The notes beneath the pieces were generated by a model. It was not told where the DNA came from, made no database searches, and saw only the letters and a program-made list of their open reading frames with translations. From the NCBI GenBank assembly GCA_021162935.1, contig JAGGXR010000154.1, positions 1 to 60,644 on the forward strand: a stretch of 60,644 nt of DNA, read 5' to 3'. The translations under genes and the position numbers were made by a program. The first letter of the stretch is position 1. Every line of letters begins with the position of its first letter. Source of the DNA: Deltaproteobacteria bacterium (GTDB lineage: Bacteria; Myxococcota_A; Polyangia; HGW-17; SLPX01). Shown piece after piece: positions 328 to 10,500 of this stretch.

Positions 328-357
328 TTGACCGGCAGGGCAAAAAAGAGGTATACA
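328..357 (+). promoter_or_regulatory. Sigma70-type promoter of the YxD peptide operon
   Basis: TTGACC at 328-333 and TATACA at 352-357 are separated by 18 nt, close to the housekeeping consensus. Transcription would start near 364 and leave an untranslated leader of about 110 nt before the precursor ATG at 473. No other promoter this good is visible upstream, so it probably drives the whole locus. Prediction by eye only. Confidence 0.6.
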
Positions 358-365
358 TAAAATCT

Positions 366-442
366 GGTTCTAGGAACCGACCAAGAGGGTGATGGCTCAC
401 AGGGCAAGAAAATGGCAAGGATTTAGGTGATCGTAGGTGAGC
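366..442 (+). promoter_or_regulatory. Structured 5' leader of the YxD operon
   Basis: Two inverted repeats lie in the predicted untranslated leader. GGTTC-TAG-GAACC at 366-378 sits almost on the predicted transcription start and could be an operator or a small hairpin. GCTCAC at 395-400 is complementary to GTGAGC at 437-442 and encloses a purine-rich 36-nt interval. The string CACAGGGCAA inside resembles one conserved strand of the c-di-GMP-I riboswitch, but the rest of that consensus is missing. Pairing is seen; function is speculative. Confidence 0.3.
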
Positions 443-472
443 ATTGTGGATTTTGAAAGAAAGAGGTGTGTC

Positions 473-691
473 ATGGACCGACGGAATTTTCTGAAGAAGT
501 TGGGAGGCTTTTCCGCAGTGGTCGGTGGCCTGGCGCTTTTCGGCGCAACAGCGTCGAGTGGTTGCTACGATGACTATGCCGACTACAGCGACGCCTATGG
601 CGACTACGGCGACGCCTACTCGGACTACAGCGACTACAGTGACTACAGCGACTACAGCGACTACGCCGACTACGCTGACTACGCTGACTGA
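473..691 (+). CDS. Tat-leader RiPP precursor with Tyr-X-Asp repeats
   Basis: A 72-residue peptide. The start at 473 is chosen over the upstream GTG at 437 because AGAGGTG lies about 6 nt before it and it puts the twin-arginine motif at the N-terminus. Residues 2-9 (DRRNFLKK) match the Tat consensus RRxFLK. Residues 13-27 are hydrophobic and end at Ser-Ser-Gly-Cys31, a weak lipobox-like site. Everything after Cys31 is 13 Tyr-X-Asp triplets (X is Asp, Ala, Ser or Gly) with only two single-Ala interruptions, ending exactly on Asp72. The core is encoded by tandem 9-bp units. A radical SAM/SPASM gene follows 74 nt later, so I infer a ribosomally made, modified peptide. Three-residue cyclophane (triceptide) enzymes act on aromatic-X-X motifs, and YxD would fit. 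An unmodified acidic Tyr-rich Tat protein is the alternative. Confidence 0.8.
   Translation: MDRRNFLKKLGGFSAVVGGLALFGATASSGCYDDYADYSDAYGDYGDAYSDYSDYSDYSDYSDYADYADYAD
570..691 (+). repeat. In-frame 9-bp minisatellite encoding YxD triplets
   Basis: Near-identical 9-bp units (GACTACAGC and GACTACGCC variants) run to the stop codon of the precursor gene. Because the unit is a multiple of three, slippage would change the number of Tyr-X-Asp triplets without breaking the frame. The five consecutive serine-type units and the three closing alanine-type units look like recent duplications. Confidence 0.85.
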
Positions 692-765
692 GCGTCTCTT
701 CCCAATTTTTGGTCGATCACTGACCGGCCGTCTTCCGTGGGCCGAATCCGGCCAGGAGCGCGTTC

Positions 766-1923
766 GTGCTCTTTATCGTCAAGCCTACAGCTGCCTGTAA
801 CGGCGCCTGCATCTATTGTAGTGCGTACAAGGATGATCCATCCAAGCTGAGAAAAATGAGCATGGAGGAACTCCGGTTCCTGTATGGTCGATTGACCGAG
901 TACGTCGAGGCGACCGGTCTGAAGAAGATGTCCATTCTGTGGCATGGCGGGGAACCCCTATTGATGGGGCCGAAGTTTTTCGCTGAGGCTGCGGATTTGT
1001 CCGACGAATTGAAGAAACGAACCGGGGTGGCCGTTGGGCACCTGATTCAGTCGAACATTACTCTTGTGTCGGACGCGCTCGTTTCGGTTCTACGCAGGCT
1101 CCTCGGGGATCGCCGTCTGGGTACCTCTTATGATCCCATAGCCGGTATCCGGTTACTCAAAGGCAATCGATCGTACGAGGCCATGTGGCATGCCGGCCTG
1201 GACAAGTTGCAGGCTGGTGGCCTCAACGTGGGCGTCGTTTACGTGGTGCATGCCCTGAGCCTCAATAAGGCTCGCGACATCTATCAGCAGTTCAAGGCCA
1301 TGGATTTGAGGGGCGGTCTGAGATTCAATCCGCTCTATTCCGAGGGACTGGCCAAGCGTTCCGAGCATCTCCATATTTCTCCGCAGCAGTGGGGTGAGTT
1401 CCTTTTGGATCTCAGGGAGGCCTGGGACGAGGACGGCCGTACCATTCCCGTGGCTCCCCTCGATGGATGGGAGGCGTTGGCCGAGGGTCGGAAAGCCCGC
1501 TTGTCCTGCGCCTTTTCGGGAACCTGCACGAGGGGGTTCACCGGGATCGAGGCAGACGGCACCGTGTATTCATGCGGTCGTTCTCTGGACGGAGAACTGA
1601 AGCCGTTCGGCAACATCCACGATGCTCCGCTTGCCGACATCCTTGGAGGTGACGCGAGGCGCGCCTTTTTGAATCGCCAGGAGTGGTTGCTGATGGGGGA
1701 GTGCGCCGGATGCCGTTGGTGGAACTTCTGTCATGGCGGATGCCCGAACGATGCCTACCTGGCCTTCGGGGACATGATGCGAAAGACGTACTGGTGTGAG
1801 GGGCGTAAGCTGTTTCTGGACCGGGTATACGGGGAGCGCGCCGGAATCGCGATCGCCCCTGAGCAAACTCACGAGGAAGCCGGGTACGAATTCGACCTGC
1901 CCGATCCGGAGGTGACACGGTGA
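766..1923 (+). CDS. Radical SAM/SPASM peptide maturase
   Basis: A 385-residue enzyme starting at GTG 766, with AGGAG seven nt upstream. Residues 11-18 contain the CxxxCxxC motif (CNGACIYC) that binds the SAM-cleaving 4Fe-4S cluster, and WHGGEPL follows near residue 65 as in anSME-like and peptide-modifying enzymes. The C-terminal third is a SPASM domain with cysteines around SCAFSGTC, YSCGRS and CAGCRWWNFCHGGCP plus a final YWC, enough for two auxiliary clusters. It is the obvious candidate to modify the Tyr-X-Asp peptide encoded just upstream. No sulfatase gene is in view, which argues against a sulfatase maturase. Its stop overlaps the next start (GTGA), so the two are translationally coupled. 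Radical SAM/SPASM assignment is firm; reaction and substrate are inferred. Confidence 0.9.
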   Translation: MLFIVKPTAACNGACIYCSAYKDDPSKLRKMSMEELRFLYGRLTEYVEATGLKKMSILWHGGEPLLMGPKFFAEAADLSDELKKRTGVAVGHLIQSNITLVSDALVSVLRRLLGDRRLGTSYDPIAGIRLLKGNRSYEAMWHAGLDKLQAGGLNVGVVYVVHALSLNKARDIYQQFKAMDLRGGLRFNPLYSEGLAKRSEHLHISPQQWGEFLLDLREAWDEDGRTIPVAPLDGWEALAEGRKARLSCAFSGTCTRGFTGIEADGTVYSCGRSLDGELKPFGNIHDAPLADILGGDARRAFLNRQEWLLMGECAGCRWWNFCHGGCPNDAYLAFGDMMRKTYWCEGRKLFLDRVYGERAGIAIAPEQTHEEAGYEFDLPDPEVTR

Positions 1924-2798
1924 CGGCTCATTTGGTGGACTGTTCCTGCATGGAACCGGATGCATCATGGGGGCAGGTCGCGTTGCGGATACCCTGGTCC
2001 GAGGTGGGGGCAGTCCAGTCGTTTGCCGTTCCGGTTCGGCTCGTCCGACTCTCCGGAGAACTGCCGACTGGACATCGGGACGGCGATGATTCGTCCGAGA
2101 TGAGTCGTTTGCTCGGCCAATTGCCTGCTGGGATTCGAATTATCGTGACCGGGGAGCATCCTGCCGGGTTGGTTTCAGAATTGCCTCGCGCGATGGAATC
2201 AGAGCACAAGAATCTTTGGTTCGAGGTGTCAGGTGAGGCGAAGGACCTAGTGGCAACTGTGCGCCAAGCGGGCCTTTCTGGATGGCCGGTGCTGCTCCCT
2301 AGGGATTCGGCGGCATTGTGGCAGTCACCTGACTTGCTCGACTTGCTTGACTTGTATCTGTTCGAGGAAACCCTGCAGGTTCCGATCGAGCCGTTCCATT
2401 CCATGCTCGTGTCTTTGTTGTCCCGGTCCGGACGCACCCTGTGGAACATGTGGTTTGGCTGGCCTCTGGATTTCTTTTTCATAGACGAGGACCATCACGT
2501 GAGCCTCTGTGCTTCTTGGGCATCGGATTCGAATCGATGCTATGGTTCGGCGACGGATTCCGTTTCGGTATGGCGAGCCTCGGAGGCGCACGATTCACTG
2601 GCCGCGATGCTCGATGAGCGGAAATCTTGCTCGGACTGTGAGTCCTGTCCAATTCGACATCTGTGCGGCGGTGCGCTGCGTGCGGTGCACTCCGATGTGG
2701 ATTGTTCGACCTGGGTCGAGATCGTGGAACGGTTGCGGCTCGCGGCAGCAGCCCTTGGTCGAACGGCGGGTGATCGGAACCATGGGAATCAAAGCTGA
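1920..2798 (+). CDS. SPASM-tail partner protein lacking the radical SAM motif
   Basis: 292 residues from GTG 1920, which overlaps the maturase stop by four bases and has GGAGG seven nt upstream. The N-terminal two thirds match no family I recognise and contain no CxxxCxxC. The C-terminus (about residues 215-275) has a cysteine cluster CSDCESCPIRHLCGG followed by HSDVDC, laid out like the second auxiliary-cluster half of a SPASM domain; Cys in SLCASWA may be the preceding ligand. I interpret it as a degenerate radical SAM/SPASM paralogue, perhaps a precursor-binding or electron-transfer partner of the maturase. Coupled translation supports joint function. A plain zinc protein is the alternative. 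Confidence 0.65.
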   Translation: MTAHLVDCSCMEPDASWGQVALRIPWSEVGAVQSFAVPVRLVRLSGELPTGHRDGDDSSEMSRLLGQLPAGIRIIVTGEHPAGLVSELPRAMESEHKNLWFEVSGEAKDLVATVRQAGLSGWPVLLPRDSAALWQSPDLLDLLDLYLFEETLQVPIEPFHSMLVSLLSRSGRTLWNMWFGWPLDFFFIDEDHHVSLCASWASDSNRCYGSATDSVSVWRASEAHDSLAAMLDERKSCSDCESCPIRHLCGGALRAVHSDVDCSTWVEIVERLRLAAAALGRTAGDRNHGNQS

Positions 2799-3330
2799 GG
2801 TTGCCAAGAACGGCGTGATGGGCCGGCAGGAGGTGGATGAGCCTCCTTGGGGGAGCTATCATCCCTATCTGGCAGCCCTGTCAGTATGGATGTGGATCGA
2901 GGCCCTCAGGGCTGGAATCGGAGGGGGCATTGCGGGGCATGGACTGTTTGGGAGCCGCGTGGTGGTGTTTGCCTTGTTCTGTGACGCTGCGATTGCAGGG
3001 GTGGGAGCGGTCCTGGTTCTTTGTTCGGGGCAATGGACGAGATGGGCGGCCTCGGCCGTCCTGTTTGCAGGCTTGGTGGTTCGCGCCATTTTGGGATTCA
3101 TGCTGGCCTCTTCGCATCGTCTTGTCGAGACGGCGGTGTTTCTAAGCCTGGGCCTTGCCATCCTGTCTCAGGTTTGGTCCATGTCCGACGAGGACAAGGG
3201 TTTTTCGGCGATCGGCATCCCCAGATACGTTGCTGCGCTTCATGTGCTGCTGACCGCAATCGGCTTGGCGACCCTGTCCGCGCTCCTGTTGATTCTCGTA
3301 GAGCCCTACCTACCCGCTTTCTTGACGTAG
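2782..3330 (+). CDS. Small multi-span membrane protein of the YxD locus
   Basis: About 182 residues from ATG 2782, overlapping the preceding gene by 17 nt; ATG 2818 (170 residues) is the alternative and neither has a strong ribosome-binding site. The translation has four clear hydrophobic segments (around VVVFALFCDAAIAGVG, AASAVLFAGLVVRAI, VFLSLGLAILSQVW and LLTAIGLATLSALLLI) and a Trp-rich amphipathic stretch before them. No family recognised. Position at the end of the peptide operon suggests a role in export, immunity or anchoring of the modified peptide; that is inference. Its 3' end overlaps the convergent gene on the other strand by 25 nt. Confidence 0.65.
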   Translation: MGIKAEVAKNGVMGRQEVDEPPWGSYHPYLAALSVWMWIEALRAGIGGGIAGHGLFGSRVVVFALFCDAAIAGVGAVLVLCSGQWTRWAASAVLFAGLVVRAILGFMLASSHRLVETAVFLSLGLAILSQVWSMSDEDKGFSAIGIPRYVAALHVLLTAIGLATLSALLLILVEPYLPAFLT

Positions 3331-4592: not shown

Positions 4593-5651
4593 CTAGTGCT
4601 TCAGTTCCCTATGTCGCATGAGCAGGATGATCGTGAATGGACCGCCGATGAGCGCGGTGAGGACGCCGACCGGGAGTTCTGCTGGTGCGAAAACAGTTCG
4701 TGCCAGGGTGTCGCATGCGATCAAAAAGACGCCGCCCGCCCCGGAGGCGGCGGGGAGGAGAATCCGATGGTCCGGCCCGGTGATGGATCGGACCACATGT
4801 GGAACGATGAGGCCGACGAACCCAATGGGCCCGACGACCGCAACCACGGCGGCGGTCGCGAGCGATGCTCCGAAATAGGCGATTTTTTGGGTCCAGGCGA
4901 CATCGACCCCCCTTGTCCGCGCCAGGTCCTCGCCACCTGCCAACACGTTCAGGTCTGCGGTGATCACGAACTGGAATGCCAAGCCCGTGGCTGCAAAGGG
5001 AAGGATCTGGAACAAGGAGCGGTAGCCCGTGACGCCCAGTCCTCCCATGAGCCACCGCAGCATGCGGTAGCTGTTGCCGAAGTCTGCAATGTAATGAGCG
5101 AGTAGGATCAGGGCGTGGAAGGTCAAAGCGAGACAGATTCCTGCCAGGAGCAAGGTCGTGGAATCGATGCCCCGACTGGCTCGGGACAGGGATTTGGCCA
5201 ACAGGTACACCACGCCAATGGCAATCAGGGCGCCGGCCAGGGCGAATAAGGGCACCGAACTCATACCGAACACGGTGACATTGGCACCGGTCAGGATGGC
5301 CAGGACAGCGCCGGCCGACGCACCGGACGAGACGCCGAGCGTGTACGGTTCAGCGAGGGGATTGCGCAGAAGTCCCTGGAGGACGACCCCGGATGCGGCC
5401 AGGACGACTCCGGTCAGGCCGGCCATGATGGCCCTGGGCAGACGGGCGGCGAACAAAATCCTTCGGGCGATCGGGTCGGAGCCGGACAAGGCGCCGGCCA
5501 AGTCGAGATGGTATGGTCCAATGAGCGAAGCGCCCAGGATGGCCACGACCAGAGATACGAGACTGACCAGGGTTGCCAAGACGACTTTGGTCGCGACCCT
5601 TGGTCGGCGAGGAATCTGCGATGTCCTGTCATGCGTCCTACGATCGGTCAT
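4593..5651 (-). CDS. FecCD/BtuC-family ABC transporter permease
   Basis: 352 residues from ATG 5651, one base after the ATPase stop. The protein is strongly hydrophobic with the spacing of the FecCD family, which builds the inner-membrane channel for iron-siderophore, haem or cobalamin import. Family hallmarks visible are ARLPRAIMAGLTGVVLAASG in the second helix region, the PLAEPYTLGVSSGASAGAV stretch, and GPIGFVGLIVPHVVRSITGP, the coupling helix that meets the ATPase. Works with the next two genes upstream (ATPase and binding protein). Substrate cannot be read from the sequence; cobalamin or a ferric chelate is most likely for this family. An unrelated-looking tail to 5693 was not included. 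Confidence 0.92.
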   Translation of the reverse strand: MTDRRTHDRTSQIPRRPRVATKVVLATLVSLVSLVVAILGASLIGPYHLDLAGALSGSDPIARRILFAARLPRAIMAGLTGVVLAASGVVLQGLLRNPLAEPYTLGVSSGASAGAVLAILTGANVTVFGMSSVPLFALAGALIAIGVVYLLAKSLSRASRGIDSTTLLLAGICLALTFHALILLAHYIADFGNSYRMLRWLMGGLGVTGYRSLFQILPFAATGLAFQFVITADLNVLAGGEDLARTRGVDVAWTQKIAYFGASLATAAVVAVVGPIGFVGLIVPHVVRSITGPDHRILLPAASGAGGVFLIACDTLARTVFAPAELPVGVLTALIGGPFTIILLMRHRELKH

Positions 5652-5652
5652 G

Positions 5653-6522
5653 TCAGCTCCTGCCTGCGATGGGGAGGACCAACGGGGCCTCATCGAGGAA
5701 CGATGTGGATACGTCCTGGCCGAAGAGGGTTTCGATCAGCGAAGCCGTCACGACGTGAGCGGGTTTTCCCTGTGCAAGAAAGGCACCCTTGTCAATGACC
5801 CAGATGTGTTGGGCCCACCGAATGGCGAGGTTCCAGTCGTGGAGTGCTATGATGGCGGCGATTTGCCTACGGGCGCAGGTGTCCCGTAGGATCCGCATGA
5901 CCGCAACCTGATGCGACATGTCGAGATTCGAAGTGGGCTCGTCCAGGACGAGGAGCTTGGGCTGTTGGGTCAGTGCGGCGGCCAGCATGACGCGTTGGCG
6001 CTCTCCCCCTGACAGGGCTATGTAGGGTCGTTGAGAGAGATGGGAGATGGACGTTGCGTCCATAACCGTCCTGGCGATGTCGAGGTCTCTGTCCGAAGCG
6101 AATGCAAGGGGCCCCTGATGGGGGCGGCGGCCGGTCAGAACGACTTCCTCGACGGAAAATGGCAGGTTCACCGGGATGTCCTGGGGAACGTACGCCACCA
6201 GCCTGGCCAGTCGTCTCGTTCCCAATTCGTCCAGGGGCTGGCCGTCCACGAGGAGGGTTCCAGCATCGGGTTTTTCCAGTCCACAGATGAGTTTGAGCAG
6301 GGTGGATTTTCCCGCGCCGTTCGGGCCCACCAGACCCACGACCTGTCCGGGAAACAATGAAAAGTCCAGATGATCGATCACCCGATGATCGGAATACCCG
6401 AAATCCAGAGATCGGGCCTGCACGATGGAGACCGGCGAATCGGATTCCCCGGAAGTTTGGGTAGCTTGCCGATTTTTGTTTCGCGGCGGCTCATGCATCG
6501 GCGACTTGGTGGCGTCGTTCAT
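5653..6522 (-). CDS. ABC transporter ATP-binding protein, BtuD/FhuC type
   Basis: 289 residues from ATG 6522. Walker A is GPNGAGKST, the Q-loop lies in AYVPQD, the signature is LSGGERQR, Walker B is LLVLDEPTSNLD and the switch histidine is in IALHDWNLA. This is the arrangement of ATPases that serve FecCD/BtuC-type importers. The 10-nt gap to the binding-protein gene and 1-nt gap to the permease indicate one transcript. An N-terminal extension of about 40 charged residues precedes the nucleotide-binding domain. The longer open frame to 6855 runs into the binding-protein gene and is not used. Confidence 0.93.
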   Translation of the reverse strand: MNDATKSPMHEPPRNKNRQATQTSGESDSPVSIVQARSLDFGYSDHRVIDHLDFSLFPGQVVGLVGPNGAGKSTLLKLICGLEKPDAGTLLVDGQPLDELGTRRLARLVAYVPQDIPVNLPFSVEEVVLTGRRPHQGPLAFASDRDLDIARTVMDATSISHLSQRPYIALSGGERQRVMLAAALTQQPKLLVLDEPTSNLDMSHQVAVMRILRDTCARRQIAAIIALHDWNLAIRWAQHIWVIDKGAFLAQGKPAHVVTASLIETLFGQDVSTSFLDEAPLVLPIAGRS

Positions 6523-6532
6523 GGTACAGGCC

Positions 6533-7510
6533 TCACGGGACACTTTGTGGAGACGTTGGATTCCGAAGCCGTTCGGCGACTTCGGGATGGATCCAGACCG
6601 CCAGTTGCCTCGCCGCATCGACGAGCCTCGGTCCTGGGACCAACCAGTAGGTTTGCCTGGACACGTGGAGTCGACAGGCCAAAGATCCTGTTTCGAAGAA
6701 CCCTCGCCAGCTTTTTTCGACGTCTGCGATGGACCAAGGGCTTGGCGGCGCCGAGATTTCGATGACGACCTTAGGTTTGTTGTGTAACAAGGCCTCCTTG
6801 TTGATGACAGGGTAGGAGACAGGGGCTTGGGCGAGCACGTTGCGTCCGCCGGCAAGGGTGATGAGTCGGTCTAAGACGGTGTGTCTACCCACACCATACA
6901 GGGAACGGAGGGTTGCGTCCGCTCGACCCACGATGATGAGGGTGGGCACCAACGGGCGTTTGGAAACGAGCCGTCGTATTTGGTTGAGCTCTGCGCGCAT
7001 TCGGTCGGAAAGTGCTTTTGCTCGGCGTGACTGTCCCACGCTGGATCCGATGATGATGATGGACGTCAACACGTCGGCCAGAGACTTGTCCGGGACCCTG
7101 AGTACGGACAGGCCACTGTCTCGAAGTTTTTCTGCGAGTTCACGTTGGTCCGATCGGCAGACGACAAGATCGGGATCCAGGGTCAAGATGCGCTCGAAGC
7201 TGGGGGAGAAGAAGCCTCCGATTCTGGTTTTGTGTACGATGGCCCTTGGGGGATAGGTGGTGTTATCGGTAATGCCGGCGACTTGGGGCCCCATCTGCAA
7301 GGCGAAGAGGATTTCAGCAATGCCTGGAGACATGGCCACGATTCGCGTAGGCCTGCCATGATGCAGGGATTTGGGACGTGCGTGCATGAAATGGAGGCCG
7401 AGCACGGCGATCACGGTGGACAGGATTGCTGTGGCGATCGGCGCCGCAAGGATGTGTGATTGCTGCTGCTGCCCAGGTGAGGTCACGCCGCCTCTTTTTG
7501 CCCATTCCAT
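6533..7510 (-). CDS. Periplasmic binding protein, BtuF/FhuD-like
   Basis: 325 residues from ATG 7510, which overlaps the stop of the Omp85 gene as TAATG, so translation is probably coupled. A hydrophobic segment near residues 17-36 is a signal peptide or anchor. The mature part begins RIVAMSPGIAEILFALQMG and later has VVCRSDQRELAEKLRDSGLSVL, VGQSRRAKALSDRM and a C-terminal TYWLVPGPRLVDAARQLA, all characteristic of the TroA/BtuF fold (PF01497). It would deliver a metal chelate or corrinoid to the following permease/ATPase. No TonB-dependent receptor is in the window. Confidence 0.88.
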   Translation of the reverse strand: MEWAKRGGVTSPGQQQQSHILAAPIATAILSTVIAVLGLHFMHARPKSLHHGRPTRIVAMSPGIAEILFALQMGPQVAGITDNTTYPPRAIVHKTRIGGFFSPSFERILTLDPDLVVCRSDQRELAEKLRDSGLSVLRVPDKSLADVLTSIIIIGSSVGQSRRAKALSDRMRAELNQIRRLVSKRPLVPTLIIVGRADATLRSLYGVGRHTVLDRLITLAGGRNVLAQAPVSYPVINKEALLHNKPKVVIEISAPPSPWSIADVEKSWRGFFETGSLACRLHVSRQTYWLVPGPRLVDAARQLAVWIHPEVAERLRNPTSPQSVP

Positions 7511-10500
7511 TAGAAAATAAACCCAAAATTGAAGTGGATCCTGCCGCTGCGCGAGGTGCCATATGATGGCTCGAACGGGACGCCATAGGCGACGCTGATG
7601 GCTCCGACAGGCGTCACCAGGCGCAGGGCGAGCCCCATCGAATGTTTGAATCCGGTGATGAAATGGACGAAGCCCTTGCCACCGAATGTGTTCACGATGG
7701 AACCGGCATCGAAGAATATAGCGCCCCAGATGGGCAGACCAGCCAGAATGGATCGCTTCCAAATGGGGAACTGGATTTCCAGATTGTAGATCATTCGGAT
7801 GTTGCCCCCCTGGGGGACCACTCGGTAGACGAGCGGCCCCTTGGTTCCCGGAACCAGGGGGAGGGTCTCGACCGCGGTGAAGAGTTGGTCTCGTTCGTAA
7901 CCGCGAACCGTCGTATCACCGCCAGCGTAGAACCGTTCCGTATCGGGCAGCATCACGGTTTGTCCCAGTGGAAATCCGTGATCGTAACGGACCCCTTGTG
8001 CGATGACCAAGCCGAAGGGCAAAGGGATGAAGGCCTGGGCTGCCAGACGGAGGTGGATGAACCGGGCTGCCGGCAGAAGGTCTGCAAGGAGATAGCGGGA
8101 CGACCACAGGACCGAGGCGGTCAGTTGGAAGCCCTTGCGGGGCACCAGGGGGTTATCGCGGTGGTCCCAGATGATGGTCGGCCCCAGGGACGCCGTGTTC
8201 GTGTAGATGTCCACCGAATTCGCTTCATCCATTGCGGCCGCTGTGCGGTAGAGGGGTTCTCGGTGCCTGGCTCTCTTGAGAATGTAACGACCAAACAGTT
8301 GGATCCGTTCGGTGAAGCGCTTGATGACGCTGATCGAGAGGCCATAGGTCAACAGGGGCCCAAGCCGGGCTGTGTCTTCGTTGCGAACGAAGCCAGTCAG
8401 GTCGAAAATGAGGTGTGTGCGGATGAACCGGGGGTCTCGGAACGTTAACCGAGCCTTTTGGATCCGCTCGCCGTATTCACCTGTCAGTTCGAATTGCTTC
8501 GCCCAACCGAAGAGATTTCTGTTTCGGTACATGAGACTGACGAACCACAGGTTGTCCGTGGAGGCGCCGACGCCCACCTCGATGGTGCCGCGATCATTGA
8601 ATCGCTCGGAAACCTGGACGATGACATGGACGGTCTTCTGTTTGCTCCTCAGGCCCATCAGGCCGATGGATGCACTCTTGAAGACACCGAGGCTGGCCAG
8701 GTTCCTGCGGGACCGTTGTATCTTGGCGAGGCTGAATCGTTGCCCGGTTTTGAAAACCAACTCGTGCAGGATCGTGCTCTTGGACGTCTTGAGGTTTCCC
8801 TTGACGAAAATTTGGCCGAAGCGAACCACCGGGCCAAGTTTGACCCGATAGGTCATATCGACGCCGGTCCGGTCCCTGGACGGTTTGGCCTCGTACGCCA
8901 CCTGGACGTAGGGATGGCCTCGGTCCGCACACAAACGCTTCATGCGAGCCAGGTCTTTGGCCATGGCGGATTCAGTGAAGGGTTTTCCTTTCTTGAGAGA
9001 GATCTTGTTCAGCAAGGCCTTACGAAAGTGGGGATCGTCCACAACGAGTTTGACGGATACGACCCGTACCTGCCGGCCTTCGTCAACCTGAAATTGGATC
9101 CAGATCCATCCCTTGAGGCCGCGAGGCAACCCGAGCGCTTCGGTGAGGGCAATAGCCGCCGGATGCTCGAGTGTCTTTGGATGCCGTGCGACGGACGCCC
9201 AGACACGTGCATATCGATAGCCCTTCGACCGATAGTAGGTGCGGATCCGTCCGATATCCTGCGCCAACTGGACCGAGGTGACGTATCCGCCCGATCCGAG
9301 TCCGATGTATCCAAGCAATGGATAAGGCTTGGTCTTGATGACCTTGCGGAGACGGGCCGACGAGATGAATCGGTTTCCTTTGAAAAGAACCTCACGAATT
9401 TTGAGGCGGGGTCCCTCGAAGATATGGAACGTCATGACGTTGTCGAGGCGACTCTTACGCTGACTGTCCACGTAGACACGTGCTTCGAGGTATCCCTTTT
9501 TTTGGTAGGCTCGCTGCAGGGACGTGACCGACTGGGCAACTTCATAGTCATCGCACGAGCCCTGACGGTAGATGGTCAAGAATTTGGTGAGATCCTTTTT
9601 CCCCAGGCCATGGTGGCCCAACAGTCGAATCTGGTACCTGCGTCCTTCTCGAACCACGAGATGGATATTCACACGGCGACGCTTTCGATCGAGACTGGAA
9701 GCCGGATGAAAGTCGCTTCTGATACGGACCTCGATGTAGCCGAGGTTTTGGTATTTCTTTCGAAGTCGCTTCAGATCCGTGCGGAACAACTTGATGGAAA
9801 ACGGCCTGTGATAGAAGAGTAACTTGTGGGTAAACAGCCGCTGGATAGCCCTGTTGGAGAGTGCCCTGTTTCCTTCTGCCGTGACTTTGCCGATTCGGTA
9901 TAGGTAGGGATTCCAGATGAAGAGCGGGCTGATTTTCCACAGAGGACGCAGCAGGATCAAAATGTCCACGACGTGGCGTTTCTTGGTCTTTTCCACAACG
10001 ATTTCGAGATCACCGTCAAAGTAGCCTTCCCGTTGGAGGTACTTCAAAATACGCTTCTTTTGTCGGTCGAACTCTTTTTTTCGGATTTCAGGGGGCGGCA
10101 GACGCGAGCCGTTTCGGTAACGAAAGTGGCGGAGGATCTCTTCCTCGAACAGGGGCCAATTTCCACGCACGTAGACGTATCGAACCACGGGAATGGGTTT
10201 GAGGGTCACTTTCACCACGATGGATGTGCCGTGCCATTTTTCATGGACCGAGACGTAGTATCCGAGACGATCGAGATCCTGTTTGAGTAGGTCCAGGGCT
10301 TTGAGGAGCTGCGCAGCACGCCACCGACTGCCCTTCCGCACCGGCAGGGTCGCCATGATGTGCTTGTGTTTGTCCTCGATTCGACCGGAAACCGTGATGG
10401 CGGAGACGGTCACGATGGTATTTTCCGTGATCATGTGCTGAACGGCTGGTCGCTTGGACAGCGCCCCATGAGGAGGTGTGCCTCCAGGCGGGACGTGCGC

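Follow-up and report, generated by a model that had tools for sequence, protein, structure and literature searches.

A Tyr-X-Asp repeat protein with a twin-arginine-type leader beside a radical SAM/SPASM maturase: a candidate system for exported cyclophane proteins

We analysed a 60,644-nucleotide stretch of DNA from a Deltaproteobacteria bacterium (assembly GCA_021162935.1, contig JAGGXR010000154.1), which is called the window here and corresponds to G000:C81:1-60644 in our genome collection. At the left end of this contig lies a locus of four genes, encoding a precursor protein built of Tyr-X-Asp (YxD) repeats, a radical S-adenosylmethionine (SAM)/SPASM maturase, a partner protein and a membrane protein. 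Its features are as follows:

473..691, + strand: YxD precursor, 72 aa, with leader MDRRNFLKKLGGFSAVVGGLALFGATASSG, Cys31, 13 YxD units and two Ala spacers
473..565, + strand: leader, with an RRNFL twin-arginine motif, a hydrophobic stretch and a lipobox-like end, ASSGC
566..688, + strand: core of 13 YxD units, by unit count and shuffle test
766..1923, + strand: radical SAM/SPASM maturase, 385 aa, GTG start, with CxxxCxxC at residues 11-18, eight SPASM cysteines and CGR at residues 270-272
1920..2798, + strand: partner, a pseudo-radical-SAM protein without CxxxCxxC and with a reduced SPASM-like Cys tail, by domain search and alignment; overlaps the maturase gene by 4 nt
2782..3330, + strand: membrane protein, 182 aa, of no family; overlaps the partner gene by 17 nt

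The translation of 473-691 opens with MDRRNFLKKLGGFSAVVGGLALFGATASSGC and continues with 41 residues of YxD core. These residues, which follow Cys31, consist of 13 YxD units and two single Ala spacers, and no Tyr is found outside the units. In 100,000 shuffles of the core composition, the YxD count averaged 3.9 and never exceeded 10, compared to the 13 observed. No further run of at least three YxD units was found in the window. An earlier sequence-only reading of this DNA had described the 72-residue precursor with its 13 units, the radical SAM/SPASM enzyme, the membrane protein and both gene overlaps correctly. Its promoter at position 328, on the other hand, was not recovered: the site scan found no sigma-70-type promoter there, the TTGACC-18-TATACA sequence at this place does not pass the -10 criterion, and by chance alone the region would contain about one sigma-70-type site anyway. 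The RNA hairpin between the precursor and maturase genes was ordinary (z -0.84). Three points go beyond that reading, namely the twin-arginine/Gly-Cys nature of the leader, a second precursor on another contig and the fact that the membrane protein is not conserved.

The second YxD precursor was revealed by a DNA search of the window's own genome (G000), on contig C147 (L003:7471-7914). It is 147 aa long from its ATG, has 34 YxD units and a leader of the same kind, and is flanked by tRNA-Met and tRNA-Ala genes, with no maturase adjoining. Tyr and Asp are invariant in 34 of the 34 units, despite varying codons (TAC/TAT 28/6, GAC/GAT 30/4), and the middle positions hold 8 different residues encoded by 15 codons. 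As Tyr and Asp are fixed in spite of silent codon changes and the middle residue varies, selection acts on the YxD register, and the pattern is not that of a fresh DNA duplication. Since the genome contains no more than one match to the maturase at E≤1e-20, both precursors would share one enzyme.

Related genomes also encode repeat proteins with twin-arginine translocation (Tat)-type leaders, built of YxD, YxE, YxN or WxD units and in some cases carrying Cys-rich modules. In G001, a deposited Deltaproteobacteria metagenome-assembled genome of the same family (its contig C415 is identical to JAABSF010000483.1), we found a maturase 57% identical to that of the window, accompanied by a YxD precursor of 78 aa, and another locus encoding a 240-aa YxE/YxD protein whose C-terminal end consists of two Cys-rich modules. 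The precursor of G104 lies on the same stretch as the maturase, behind the same run of genes, and combines one Cys-rich module with YSD/YSE/YSN units. G193 encodes a Tat-type protein ending in WSDYSDYSDYSDYWGNWMESW, adjoining a more distant enzyme. Unlinked precursors were found in G002 (147 aa, 30 units) and in G033 (YSN units and a Cys-rich module as in G104). The module, CxxTCxYxxDGxCDDxGxxSxxxxCDxGxDCxDCG, is joined to YxD/YxN repeats in L021, L106 and L101; its resemblance to Notch-type LNR repeats is by eye only, and no Pfam model matched. Weak profile matches to about the same module were also seen in other proteins of the class.

Precursor and maturase genes are neighbours in the window and at four further loci: two in G001, one in G104 and, with the more distant enzyme, one in G193. 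Among 318 genomes of the class, 22 had a maturase match at E≤1e-30, and all six precursor genomes were among these 22 (p ~8e-7 with G000 left out). This co-occurrence is partly circular by ascertainment, as some precursors were found beside maturases. A maturase-independent pattern search with manual reading recovered G001 and G002 besides G000, both with a close maturase. The YxD pattern alone was rejected as proof of a precursor, since the repeats of G015, G042 and others are micro-tandem repeats without a Tat leader. Weak matches of the A3 profile (E 1e-4 to 1e-8), mostly to its Cys-rich part or to repeat stretches, were not counted. A phylum-wide sample of 379 genomes added neither a convincing precursor nor a maturase of the tight clade, so the system looks rare.

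The maturase retains all three radical SAM and all eight SPASM cysteines (Pfam SPASM 2.3e-8; TIGR04085 2.1e-12). Its nearest solved structure is the anaerobic sulfatase maturase PDB 4k37 (7e-22). We take Asp277 to be the catalytic residue of anaerobic sulfatase maturases. Its position, found by residue counting in the alignment to 4k37, corresponds to Gly271 in a Cys-Gly-Arg (CGR) motif in nine of nine clade members; sulfatase-type homologues retain Cys-Asp there. In the tree, the nine CGR maturases are grouped at support 93/91, with the G193, G033b and G104b enzymes nearby. The latter two are second SPASM enzymes (G033b, L027; G104b, G104:C162:85053-86129, L094), which are related to the G193 enzyme and lie close to the first maturase.

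Linkage in the window and at four loci, genome-level co-occurrence and a clade-specific active-site motif together make it well supported, at the level of sequence, that the maturase acts on YxD repeats. This pairing had been proposed by the sequence-only reading, and the neighbourhood search that it suggested found other repeat precursors at the two G001 loci, in G104 and, beside the more distant enzyme, in G193. Homologous maturases without a nearby YxD peptide were to speak against the pairing. Taken literally, such maturases occur in G002 and G033, but both genomes carry a precursor that is unlinked to the maturase, which allows the pairing to operate in trans.

The SPASM tail ascribed to the partner is present, although its match is weak (TIGR04085 6e-4, under the cut-off); the tail aligns to the SPASM region of the maturase at an hhalign E-value of 1e-5. 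In G104 and G033 the partner is fused to the C terminus of the maturase, and apparently also in G001, whose partner sequence is cut off by the contig end. The aligned tail, the missing CxxxCxxC and the fusion suggest a dedicated pseudo-enzyme subunit, and the fusion points to a joint function of partner and maturase. The AlphaFold model of the partner was too poor for a fold search (mean pLDDT 45.6). The membrane protein is hydrophobic across most of its C-terminal 130 residues. It was absent from the seven other genomes searched and was therefore ruled out as a core component.

All eight precursors share an RR-x-phi-phi motif (phi, hydrophobic residue) followed by a hydrophobic stretch, though their cores differ, and a Gly-Cys 25-30 residues past the first Arg. 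In addition, TatC and Lgt were found in all six precursor genomes. Because of this Tat/lipoprotein-like leader, which was overlooked in the sequence-only reading, the likely product is an exported, anchored protein and not a released peptide. With a probability of roughly 0.6, we consider the locus a triceptide-type system of ribosomally synthesized and post-translationally modified peptides (RiPPs), in which the repeats are cross-linked in the cytoplasm and lipid-anchored poly-cyclophane proteins are then exported by Tat. Two traits of a triceptide system are present: a SPASM radical SAM enzyme adjoins the precursor, and the core is of the aromatic-X-X type (13 and 34 YxD; YxE, YxN or WxD in relatives). 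The SPASM enzyme would recognise the Tat-like leader in the cytoplasm, with the pseudo-radical-SAM partner as a putative substrate-handling or electron-transfer subunit. In each unit, a bond would form between a ring carbon of Tyr and C-beta of Asp, at positions i and i+2, so that the linked precursor could carry as many as 13 three-residue cyclophanes and the unlinked one as many as 34. Tat would export the stiffened chain, and a cut before Cys31 with lipidation would yield a rigid, acidic, membrane-tethered rod. Cross-linking before export would be a natural order, because Tat transports folded proteins and requires RR-x-phi-phi (PMC10924467). Three-residue cyclophane chemistry is plausible by analogy, because the 3-CyFE triceptide enzyme YxdB connects Tyr C3 with Asp C-beta within a YxD motif (PMC11002830).

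Several observations weigh against this reading. Tat profile scores are borderline or absent among the eight precursors: with TIGR01409 the window precursor reached 16.1 bits and two others 15.9 and 13.8, compared to a cut-off of 16.7, and no score was reported for the remaining precursors. When the lipobox [LVI][ASTVI][GAS]C was tested, position -3 of the Gly-Cys site was rarely the canonical Leu, whereas Gly at -1 and the Cys are present in 8/8. Both points make lipidation less certain. No NCBIfam maturase-family model reaches its cut-off with the maturase; the sole model above cut-off is the general SPASM domain, and dynobactin and sulfatase maturases score best, so the reaction is not readable from homology. 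Finally, clade enzymes are also encoded in G005 and G013, two incomplete genomes in which the search revealed no precursor.

The first two of these points would also fit a system with cross-linked repeats but a conventional RiPP leader, which serves for recognition and has a protease site at its end, the product being released without Tat export or lipidation. This contests the export, not the chemistry. We regard it as unlikely, though worth serious consideration, as the twin-arginine motif, the hydrophobic stretch and the Gly-Cys spacing are kept in every precursor and TatC and Lgt accompany them in all six genomes.

It is rather improbable that the maturase acts on YxD but forms another product, such as Tyr-O to C-alpha/C-beta ethers, Tyr-Tyr links, or oxidised or decarboxylated Asp or Tyr. 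The nearest families by score are mixed (dynobactin, sulfatase, TIGR04083 and darobactin maturases), which leaves room for such a product. The best NCBIfam match, DynA, scores 2e-43 and 148.7 bits against a cut-off of 450, and among the XyeB, GrrM, FxsB, YhhB and AmcB models the best is YhhB with 80.9 bits against 445. The comparison with SPASM families proposed earlier thus detected homology, but assigned the enzyme to no maturase family at cut-off. Furthermore, darobactin carries an ether and a C-C crosslink, both tied to DarE (PMC9055067). However, the i,i+2 spacing of aromatic-x-D/N/E is kept in the relatives and fits three-residue cyclophane motifs, and the product of YxdB argues in the same direction.

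The YxD proteins might instead be unmodified, acidic, Tyr-rich lipoproteins with a metal-binding or spacer role, the adjoining radical SAM enzyme having another substrate. Consistent with this, the second G000 precursor and those of G002 and G033 are not beside a maturase, and some maturase genomes had no precursor. We judge this quite improbable in view of the linkage at five loci, the full genome-level co-occurrence and the leader type, which linked and unlinked copies have in common. The reading of the enzyme as an anaerobic sulfatase maturase, which would form formylglycine, was ruled out and is hardly credible: CxxxCxxC and the eight SPASM cysteines are present and TIGR03942 (1.3e-41) and 4k37 match, but the score is 143 bits against a cut-off of 349, Asp277 is replaced by Gly across the clade and no sulfatase was seen beside the maturase.

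Some neighbouring genes and homologues were recorded as well. Downstream in the window, 4593-7762 on the minus strand seems, by reading, to encode an iron/B12-type ABC importer, with its permease at 4593-5693, its ATPase within 5653-6855 and its binding protein within 6533-7762. In G104 (L106:9086-11764), genes for a B12-binding radical SAM protein and for a further radical SAM protein lie between precursor and maturase, which suggests extra modifications there. G002 (L063:5353-6231) and G005 (L064:2505-3347) encode predicted membrane proteins with YxD-containing tails, e.g. RYNDYADYQDGG and RYGDYADYADYADAG; these may be further substrates, because both genomes carry the maturase. On pQBR57 (L138:3989-7864) and a Vibrio vulnificus plasmid (L139:3986-7382), three tandem radical SAM/SPASM genes lie directly behind pilin-like genes, and in pQBR57 the product of the gene after the tandem, 124 aa long and with CHTACHGACHGACHGSRGWR at its end, may be a precursor. 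These plasmid-borne maturase homologues (~29% identity), beside pilin genes, were set aside as a different system.

Returning to cross-linking followed by Tat export, we tentatively extend this reading to a class of radical-SAM-matured structural proteins, as opposed to secreted antibiotics, a possibility that we rate below an even chance. One maturase would act in trans on linked and unlinked chains of 13 to 34 Tyr-Asp units to give a continuous poly-cyclophane rod. The preference of Tat for folded cargo would ensure modification before export, and the rod would be lipid-anchored at the envelope, sometimes with Cys-rich modules. If true, RiPP cross-linking would build stiff, exported, membrane-anchored proteins, beyond short diffusible peptides. 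For bufferins, it is an open question how a precursor with an export signal stays inside until it is modified (PMC12452194), and the use of Tat would be a simple answer to such premature export. Owing to the repeats and the low number of genes, this idea can be tested at little cost.

The YxdB triceptide system, reportedly described by Sugiyama in 2022, likewise has a SPASM/Twitch-type radical SAM enzyme with a Tyr-X-Asp precursor. We liken YxdB (WP_226048651.1) to the present enzyme by reported motif and product, not by sequence or precursor architecture, and the text consulted on it mentions no Tat/lipoprotein leader, unlinked precursors or pseudo-radical-SAM partner, unlike the system described here. 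As YxdB is published (PMC11002830), the statement of the sequence-only reading that no described family was known is wrong for the chemistry. GrrM/OscB, XyeB, FxsB, YhhB and AmcB are SPASM enzymes with aromatic-containing motifs, and homology to them is detectable, but the maturase scores far below their cut-offs. Of the dynobactin and darobactin maturases (DynA, DarE), DynA gives the best NCBIfam score, still far from its cut-off; dynobactin and darobactin cores are short and antibiotic, whereas the present cores are long repeats. GeoRSP-type systems presumably pair a radical SAM/SPASM enzyme with a SPASM-bearing pseudo-enzyme, like our maturase and partner; the GeoRSP radical SAM model shows weak similarity to the maturase, and the substrates differ. 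In TvgA/TvgB (PMC9062424), a radical SAM enzyme also modifies the units of a repeat core, but forms cyclopropylglycine on Val in TVGG repeats, with no Tyr-Asp links. Bufferins (PMC12452194) are RiPP precursors with real export signals, some of lipoprotein type, plus partner proteins, but differ in using Sec instead of Tat, multinuclear non-heme iron oxidative (MNIO) instead of radical SAM enzymes, and Cys-based modification. A literature search, with most subscription papers outside its scope and thus weak as evidence, revealed no radical SAM RiPP precursor of Tat or lipoprotein type. To our knowledge, neither long YxD arrays on such a protein nor unlinked precursors, the CGR clade or its partner have been described. 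Tyr-X-Asp cyclophane chemistry, repeat RiPPs (TvgA) and RiPP precursors with Sec/lipoprotein signals (bufferins) are already known; the export design and the second genomic copy appear new.

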